NCBI GenBank assembly: GCA_002839545.1
Contig: PGYG01000011.1
Coordinates: 1-34,594, forward strand
DNA from: Candidatus Methanoperedentaceae archaeon HGW-Methanoperedenaceae-1
GTDB lineage: Archaea; Halobacteriota; Methanosarcinia; Methanosarcinales; Methanoperedenaceae
Direction of reading: 5' to 3'
Length of the DNA stretch: 34,594 nucleotides
In this document: positions 1,289-3,914 of the stretch, piece after piece
Numbering within the stretch: position 1 is the stretch's first letter
Layout: every line of letters begins with the position of its first letter
Program-made: the position numbers and the translations under genes
Notes under the pieces: generated by a model
What the model was told of the DNA's origin: nothing
Databases searched by the model: none
Seen by the model: only the letters and a program-made list of their open reading frames with translations

Positions 1289-2293
1289 ATGAAACTAACT
1301 GATTTTGATTATCATCTACCTGATGAACTCATAGCACAAACACCCATTGAGCCGAGGGATTCATCAAGGTTAATGGTGCTTGGTGAGGGAATCAGCCACA
1401 GGCATTTTTTTGATATTACCGATTATTTTGAAAAAGGGGATACCCTTGTACTCAACCAGTCAAAAGTAGTTCCTGCAAAACTTACAGGAAATAAAAGCAC
1501 GGGCGGGCGCGTGGAGGCGCTTGTCGTTTCAAAAAACGGCGCAGGATATGAATGCCTTGTCCAGGGAAAGCACATCAGGGAAGGCACAAAACTCCATTTC
1601 GGAGAGCTTGAGGCAGAGGTGCTTGAGGTCAGGAAAAACACAGGCACTGGAAAATACCTTCTGGATTTTAAATGCAGCGGGAACCTTGAAGACATTCTTG
1701 AAAAAATAGGCGAGGCGCCGCTTCCGCCTTATATCAAGGAAAAACTGGACGACAAAAACCGCTACCAAACAGTGTATTCAAAGGAAAAAGGCTCGATTGC
1801 AGCGCCCACGGCAGGGCTTCATTTTACGGAAAAACTGCTTGGCAGGATAAGGGATAAAGGAGTAAATATTGCATATGTTACGCTTCATGTCGGCATCGGG
1901 ACTTTCATGCCAGTAAAAACTGACGAGATAGAGCAGCATATAATGGAGCCTGAATTTTATTCCATAACAGAAGAAAACGCAAAACGTATCAATGAAACAC
2001 AGGGAAAAACCATCGTCTGCGGCACGACAACAGTGAAAGCTCTTGAAAGCTCATGTGTGGATTGGAAAATTATGCCGGCGCAGACCTCAAGCACCCTTTT
2101 CATCCATCCCCCTTACAAATTCAAATCAGGGATAGACGCCATCATCACGAACTTCCACCTGCCAAAATCCACGCTTTTAATGCTAATAAGCGCATTTGCA
2201 GGTAAAGAACGGATAGCAGCAGCCTATAATGAAGCAATAGCGAACTCATACAGGTTCTACAGCTTCGGGGATGCAATGCTAATTTTCAGGTAA
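1289..2293 (+). CDS. queA: S-adenosylmethionine:tRNA ribosyltransferase-isomerase QueA
   Basis: QueA transfers and isomerises the ribosyl group of SAM onto preQ1 already in tRNA position 34, giving epoxyqueuosine with release of adenine and methionine. The 334-residue protein matches the bacterial family from end to end: PRDSSRLMVL near residue 24, GGRVEALV, PLPPYI, YQTVYSKEKGSIAAPTAGLHFT (in two overlapping conserved blocks), VTLHVGIGTFMPV, CGTTTVKALES, TNFHLPKSTLLMLISAFAG and YRFYSFGDAMLIF. The ATG at 1289 gives the canonical MKLTDFDYHLP start; the ATG at 1271 would add six unconserved residues. tgt starts 3 nt after the stop, so the two are co-transcribed. The family is typical of bacteria; archaea normally make archaeosine and lack it, so acquisition by transfer is inferred. 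Confidence 0.96.
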   Translation: MKLTDFDYHLPDELIAQTPIEPRDSSRLMVLGEGISHRHFFDITDYFEKGDTLVLNQSKVVPAKLTGNKSTGGRVEALVVSKNGAGYECLVQGKHIREGTKLHFGELEAEVLEVRKNTGTGKYLLDFKCSGNLEDILEKIGEAPLPPYIKEKLDDKNRYQTVYSKEKGSIAAPTAGLHFTEKLLGRIRDKGVNIAYVTLHVGIGTFMPVKTDEIEQHIMEPEFYSITEENAKRINETQGKTIVCGTTTVKALESSCVDWKIMPAQTSSTLFIHPPYKFKSGIDAIITNFHLPKSTLLMLISAFAGKERIAAAYNEAIANSYRFYSFGDAMLIFR

Positions 2294-2296
2294 TTT

Positions 2297-3397
2297 ATGT
2301 ACGAACTGATACACAAAGACAGGAAAACAGATGCAAGGGCAGGGCTTCTTAAAACAAACCACGGGATAATCGAGACCCCTGCATTCATGCCTGTTGCCAC
2401 AAAAGGAACCGTGAAGACACTCGTGCCTGAGGAACTGTACGGTATGGGAACCCAGGTTCTTATCAGCAATGCATTCCATCTTTTCCTTGCGCCTGGAATG
2501 GATATTATCAGGGAAGCAGGGGGGCTTCACAAGTTCATGAACTGGGACGGGGGGATATTTACTGACAGCGGGGGTTTCCAGATGATTCGTAAAGACTTTC
2601 CTTTCAAGATTACGGACGAGGGTATTAGTTACAAGAATCCGCGTGACGGGAAGAAATACTCATACTCGCCGCAGCTTTGCATGGAGTTACAGAAAATCCT
2701 GGGAAGCGATGTTGCAATGATTCTCGATGAATGTCCTGCTTACGGGAGCGAGTACAGCGCTGTTGAGGCGTCTGTAAAGCGGACACTTAAATGGGCGCAA
2801 ATGTCCCAGACCGTGGAAAAGAATGAGGGGCAGCTTTCCTTTGCGATTCTACAGGGCGGGACGTTTCCTGACCTTCGGAAAAAATGTGCCGAAGAATTAA
2901 TTGCCATGGATTTTGACGGTTACGGAATAGGGGGATTATCCATCGGTGAGCCAAAAGAAGTAATGAATGAAGTGTTACGTCACAGCATCCCGCTTGTTCC
3001 AGAAGATAAACCGCGCTACCTTATGGGTGTCGGCTCGCCTGTTGAACTGCTAAAATCTATTGAGATGGGGATTGACATATTTGACAGCGCTTTTCCCACG
3101 CGAAACGCCAGGCACCAGACACTTATGACCTCAAATGGAAACATCGACACTGCAAAGCGAAAATTTGCCGGAGATTTCAATCCGGTTGACGGGAATTGCG
3201 GGTGCTACACCTGTAAGAACTATACGAGAGCCTATCTTTACCACCTGTTCCGTGAATCCGAACTTCTGGCTCTTCGGCTTGCGTCAATCCATAACCTGTA
3301 CTTTATCCAGTCAATAGTAAAAGGTGCAAGGCAGGCAATACTTGAGGACAGGTTCAGCGAATTCAAGGAAAAAGTCATCAGGGATTTTTCTGCTTAA
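2297..3397 (+). CDS. tgt: Bacterial-type tRNA-guanine transglycosylase
   Basis: Exchanges guanine-34 of GUN-anticodon tRNAs for preQ1 (bacteria) or queuine. At 366 residues it has bacterial length and lacks the extra C-terminal and PUA domains of archaeal TgtA, which modifies position 15. Visible key residues are the general base Asp90 in TDSGGFQ, Asp144-Glu145-Cys146 in LDECP, Gln186 in LQGG, the nucleophile Asp263 in [13 protein letters not shown], and the zinc ligands Cys301, Cys303, Cys306 and His332. The pocket loop reads GGLSIGEP, with Ile216 where bacterial enzymes usually have Val and eukaryotic queuine enzymes Gly. Together with the retained Cys146 this favours preQ1 as substrate, consistent with the adjacent queA. 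Its 3' end overlaps convergent queH by 20 bp. Confidence 0.96.
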
Positions 3398-3914
3398 GGT
3401 ACCGCTCTTTCTCGCTGAAAATACATCCGCAGTATTTTTGCATGTAAAGTTCAAGCCCCCTTGAAATATCACGTGATTCCTGATATCCTTTCCTGAAATC
3501 CTCGTAATAGAACTCAATACCGTATTCATCAGCCGTTTTTTCACCGACTTCCCTGAGCAATTCATGTTTCTGGTACGGCGAAATAAGAAGCGTGGTTGTG
3601 AAAGCGTCAAATCCCAATGAACTTGCGGCTTTTGCCGTATCTTCAAGCCGTATATTATAGCAAAACCCACACCTGTCTTCTGATTCCAGCGCGCCTCTCA
3701 GGTATTTTTCAAGCTCGTAAACGTCTTTATAGATTATTTTCACTCCTTTAATCTCAGCGTATTTTTCAAGTGCCGTCAGCCGATTTTTGTATTCAATATA
3801 CGGATGTATATTTGGATTATAGAAAAAACCGGTAACGTCATGTCCCGCTTCTTCTAATTGTTTATGGGGATACGTGAAACATGGCGCACAGCAGATGTGG
3901 GCAAGAATTCGCAT
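3378..3914 (-). CDS. queH: Epoxyqueuosine reductase QueH
   Basis: QueH (DUF208, COG1636) reduces epoxyqueuosine to queuosine in tRNA and is a non-homologous replacement for QueG. The 178-residue protein has the full cysteine pattern: Cys8-Cys9 and Cys12 (ICCAPC), Cys82 and Cys85 (RCGFCYN), and Cys162/Cys164 ([12 protein letters not shown]). The first two groups include the residues that hold the iron-sulfur cluster in the family. It is convergent with tgt, overlapping by 20 bp, and has its own promoter side with a TATA-like CATAAAG stretch about 30 bp upstream of the ATG. With queA and tgt it completes the preQ1-to-queuosine route; other DUF208 functions are unlikely in this context. Confidence 0.95.

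Follow-up and report, generated by a model that had tools for sequence, protein, structure and literature searches.

A conserved, probably functional queuosine gene cassette in a Methanoperedenaceae archaeon without a recognised preQ1 source

Can a methane-oxidising archaeon make queuosine, and where would its preQ1 come from? Queuosine is a building block of tRNA that is generally regarded as bacterial, and to our knowledge archaea are usually described as lacking it. The window analysed here is a 34,594-nucleotide stretch of contig PGYG01000011.1 from the family Methanoperedenaceae (ANME-2d), and it encodes QueA, Tgt, and QueH side by side. To judge from its sequence, this cassette is real, conserved, and probably functional. 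Archaeal sets of these enzymes are already known, and the unexplained source of preQ1 is the part worth following.

Castelle et al. (2021; PMC8204110) described QueA/QueH/Tgt sets, complete or partial, from 34 genomes of archaea, among them DPANN and Methanosarcinales. The first-pass annotation of this DNA, which knew of no described archaeal pathway, is out of date in that respect. The published pathway resembles the one in the window, with the same three colocalised enzymes in the same order of archaea. QueF and the preQ1 source are not treated in the accessible part of that paper; here, QueF absence, the archaeal Tgt clade, and co-occurrence with archaeosine genes were examined for the present lineage. 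The openly accessible literature searched contained no tie between Methanoperedens and queuosine, no report of queuosine in archaeal tRNA, and no tRNA analysis of the Methanoperedens lineage.

Gene content of the cassette

The source genome is a 2.0-Mb MAG of 128 contigs, 91.6% complete and 0.56% contaminated. All three genes are intact (Table 1). tgt and queH are convergent and overlap by 20 bases at their 3′ ends.

Table 1. Coordinates of the cassette and of other features discussed, with predicted products
Feature	Location	Coordinates	Strand	Basis or remark
SAM hydroxide adenosyltransferase (SAM hydrolase), upstream neighbour of queA	Window	337..1134	+	PF01887, PF20257
QueA, tRNA preQ1(34) S-adenosylmethionine ribosyltransferase-isomerase	Window	1271..2293	+	TIGR00113, NF001140 over cut-off
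Tgt, bacterial-type tRNA-guanine(34) transglycosylase, archaeal clade	Window	2297..3397	+	TIGR00430 over cut-off
QueH, cobalamin-independent epoxyqueuosine reductase	Window	3378..3914	-	PF02677, cysteine motifs aligned with T. maritima QueH
Fic/DOC family protein	Window	21088-22176		
QueC	Window genome, C114	192-830		E 2.4e-58
tRNA-Tyr (GTA)	L192	1294-1404		Intron adjoining anticodon
TgtA, sole copy found	G000:C60	786-2140		Three frames
queF adjoining queA-tgt	L055	2782-5191		Unclassified archaeal MAG

QueA scored 414.8 bits against NF001140 and 379.3 against TIGR00113 (cut-off 267.45), the match spanning residues 7–338, its full length. It is alignable over its whole length with the solved bacterial QueA proteins 1YY3 and 1VKY. 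The ATG at 1289 lines up with the starts of these proteins, which makes it probably a better QueA start than 1271. Tgt scored 464.4 bits against TIGR00430, exceeding the equivalog cut-off of 306.75, and 164.2 against the archaeal TgtA model, far below the cut-off of 350. Solved bacterial Tgt proteins, 2ASH among them, can be aligned with it, and a residue comparison with the E. coli enzyme showed that the TDSGGFQ and ILDEC aspartates, QGG, GGLSIGE, the FDS nucleophile, and the CxCxxC-plus-His zinc site are retained. The substrate pocket is of the bacterial type (GGLSIGE, ILDEC), not the TgtA type. QueH scored 210.5 bits against PF02677 (cut-off 23.5) and retains the HxCCAP, RCxxC, and YCGC motifs when aligned to T. 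maritima QueH structures 7LC5/9DCO. The first-pass annotation had described an end-to-end QueA, a bacterial-length Tgt with all catalytic and zinc residues, and a QueH with its full cysteine set, adjacent to one another; that description was borne out.

We infer the activities of the three enzymes from family membership. Tgt would swap the wobble G34 of GUN-anticodon tRNAs (Asn, Asp, His, and Tyr) for preQ1. QueA would then add an epoxycyclopentane ring with S-adenosylmethionine as donor, and QueH would reduce epoxyqueuosine to queuosine. The same families, end to end, the queA-tgt order, and the active-site residues are found in the bacterial pathway (E. coli queA-tgt; T. maritima QueH replacing QueG). 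Unlike in that pathway, the window genome is without QueF and the known transporters, carries archaeosine genes, and contributes sequences that fall with archaea in trees.

Conservation and origin

The closest named relative of the window QueA (85% identity) is encoded by the MAG Candidatus Methanoperedenaceae archaeon Kmv03, and genomes of Candidatus Methanoperedens come next, in agreement with the initial view that the host is an archaeon. Kmv03, the nearest genome, also has the queA-tgt-queH order. Against Kmv03, dN/dS was 0.15 for queA, 0.06 for tgt, and 0.15 for queH, the synonymous sites being saturated in more distant genomes. All three genes are under purifying selection.

Across 186 genomes of the order, QueA was detected in 49, convincing QueH in 48 (49 matches, one a weak fragment), and both in 44; the genomes share ancestry, so these counts are not independent of one another. 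The exceptions are mostly incomplete genomes; one QueA-bearing genome without QueH is 99% complete (G023). Positive genomes span three families. The family of the window genome has 33 further genomes in the set, of which 32 encode QueA and the one left encodes QueH. QueA was found in nine genomes of a 394-genome phylum sample, every one from Methanosarcinales. Where archaeal loci extend far enough to show it, queA and tgt are mostly still adjacent. Most relatives have queH separate from queA-tgt, so the three-gene cluster is a local arrangement of the window, Kmv03, and a few others. QueA and QueH co-occur in the order although their genes are usually not neighbours.

These gene families are typically bacterial, as would be expected of a cassette derived from contaminating bacterial DNA, a chimeric contig, or a recent transfer out of bacteria. 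Such a source is scarcely credible here, given the distribution within the family and the identical gene order in Kmv03. In GC content and tetranucleotide composition the cassette matches the remaining contig, and its neighbours include archaeal genes such as FEN-1. A comparison with bacterial sequences, suggested at the first pass, was made with quick trees for which bacteria were picked by likeness to the window QueA. Tgt34 proteins of Methanosarcinales, Thermoplasmatota, Hydrothermarchaeota, and Woesearchaeota formed one clade against the bacteria sampled (100% SH-aLRT), which argues against both contamination and recent bacterial transfer. Archaeal QueA sequences grouped with a support of 91 relative to the nearest bacterial sequences. 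Composition, synteny, distribution, and trees together led us to reject contamination and a chimeric contig. The trees suggest an old spread of Tgt and QueA among archaea; given how they were built and sampled, this is the simplest reading rather than proof, and the direction of transfer is not proven.

Substrate tRNAs and archaeosine genes

The window genome encodes tRNA-Asn (GTT), tRNA-Asp (GTC), tRNA-His (GTG), and tRNA-Tyr (GTA), with U33-G34-U35. The tRNA-Tyr, a queuosine substrate, has an intron of about 26 bases adjoining the anticodon. QueC was found in the window genome and in all 15 genomes tested, which makes preQ0 synthesis by these cells probable. Equivalog matches, active-site motifs, purifying selection, co-occurrence of QueA and QueH, the GUN tRNAs, and QueC together make it likely that the cassette is a working archaeal queuosine module.

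An ArcS-like open reading frame of 610 aa is intact in the window genome. The sole TgtA copy found has an open catalytic domain (392.8 bits to 1IQ8); its first residues and C-terminal part lie in other frames, three in total, on a 3,078-base contig. This split may reflect a sequence error or gene decay. The first-pass annotation had proposed queuosine in GUN-anticodon tRNAs, possibly alongside archaeosine, and a genome search for TgtA and QueC among others. Both genes were recovered, as were the tRNAs and an ArcS-like gene, and the archaeosine part of the proposal is weakened by the divided TgtA.

The archaeosine pathway (TgtA, ArcS) likewise starts from preQ0 and employs a transglycosylase of the same superfamily, and its genes, TgtA in split form, are present in the window genome. 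Unlike the window Tgt, which falls below the TgtA cut-off, it acts at position 15 with preQ0. Conservation of the cassette across this methane-oxidiser family beside archaeosine genes would indicate that one archaeal cell can carry two 7-deazaguanine modifications side by side. Wobble-position queuosine would be relevant to decoding in these environmentally important methane oxidisers.

The source of preQ1

In the established pathway, Tgt34 and QueA can act only after preQ0 has been reduced to preQ1, which is the work of QueF. A queuosine module without preQ1 would have no substrate. No QueF was matched in the window genome with PF14489 or an archaeal-weighted alignment. Across the 186 genomes of the order, PF14489 gave one true match, on a virus-like contig (G050:C66). 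The archaeal-weighted alignment comprised four QueF proteins, one from G050:C66 and the others from archaeal MAGs; it recovered the positive control and gave no match in the 20 QueA-bearing genomes of the order searched with it. Weak matches in three genomes (G045, G071, and G050) were FolE and were rejected as hidden QueF.

Known transporters were searched as well. QPTR (PF02592), an importer family for preQ0 and preQ1, is absent from the window genome and from every QueA-bearing genome of the order; PF02592 occurs in 38 of the 186 genomes, with zero overlap with those that encode QueA. Its holders in the order include QueA-less methanogens (L119-L128). QueT (PF06177) was found in none of 15 QueA-bearing genomes tested, the window genome included. 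The shared preQ0/preQ1 pool assumed in the first-pass annotation, which had also proposed these searches, is therefore not upheld, since QueF, QPTR, and QueT are all absent and only its preQ0 half, through QueC, is probable. Its broader claim that the archaeon can make queuosine stands as regards intact, selected genes and GUN tRNAs, and does not stand as regards a recognised source of preQ1.

QueF was present in 3 of 13 other QueA-bearing archaeal genomes reached through loci, in one of them beside queA-tgt; some other QueA-bearing archaea are likewise without it. Its presence elsewhere makes the gap characteristic of the window's lineage. The locus with queF beside queA-tgt belongs to an unclassified archaeal MAG (L055), in which queF is divergent from and adjoins queA-tgt, so that the cluster spans the route from preQ0 to epoxyqueuosine.

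The near-total absence of QueF points to a missing enzyme or transporter. With QueC present and QueF absent, preQ1 would have to come from a preQ0 reductase or a preQ1 importer that is not yet recognised. On balance, we consider it likely that Methanoperedens-type and related archaea make queuosine through an undescribed preQ1 source, whether a preQ0 reductase independent of QueF or a new transporter. A missing preQ1 gene beside queA, queH, or queC was sought and rejected, as nothing there is conserved across families.

ANME archaea live alongside bacteria, and preQ1 from a bacterial partner could be imported by a transporter family not yet tied to archaeal queuosine. Such salvage would fit the lack of QueF in the lineage. 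Three unrelated transporter families have been shown to carry preQ0 and preQ1 (PMC11130926), which makes undescribed importers plausible. However, no conserved transporter adjoins queA, tgt, queH, or queC, and QueC is kept, with preQ0 synthesis probable; we place import a little short of an even chance. An unrecognised preQ0 reductase could instead stand in for QueF, with either the free base or preQ0-tRNA as its substrate. The preQ0 gene queC in 15 of 15 genomes and the near-total absence of QueF across three families sharing QueA and QueH are consistent with this, and QueF in some other QueA-bearing archaea, once beside queA-tgt, indicates that the step is needed elsewhere. No candidate gene lies near queA, tgt, queH, or queC, and we advance a reductase only tentatively.

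The enzymes might also halt before queuosine or yield another wobble base, for example through preQ0 placed at G34 or an unusual QueA/QueH substrate. QueF is missing while preQ0 is available, and archaeal Tgt proteins have FQ[MI][IL] where aligned bacteria show FQVF. However, the archaeal proteins retain the GGL-loop and glutamate of bacterial Tgt, and conservation of QueA and QueH goes together with that of tgt, which fits the full queuosine route and makes a different product unlikely.

The 62-kb contig with the one true QueF match (G050:C66; L115, L118) is from a Methanoperedens-family MAG. It encodes QueF, a QueC-like end, FolE, a DpdA-like transglycosylase (PHROG 887), and a replicative-helicase-like gene judged by eye. 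Together these genes probably form a cluster for 7-deazaguanine modification of DNA, belonging to an archaeal virus or to a wrongly binned phage.

A preQ1 riboswitch was sought around the cassette, both in the window and in five relatives; the only Rfam matches were to tRNA, and weak elements could have been missed, since the gathering threshold missed even the window's tRNA-Arg. DUF366 in the window was rejected as a queuosine gene, with no support in the literature searched. A Fic/DOC family protein is also encoded on the window contig. The SAM hydrolase gene upstream of queA also precedes queA in four Methanoperedens-type loci (L036, L141, L142, and L145). QueA uses up SAM, and the hydrolase may be linked to queuosine as a candidate association.
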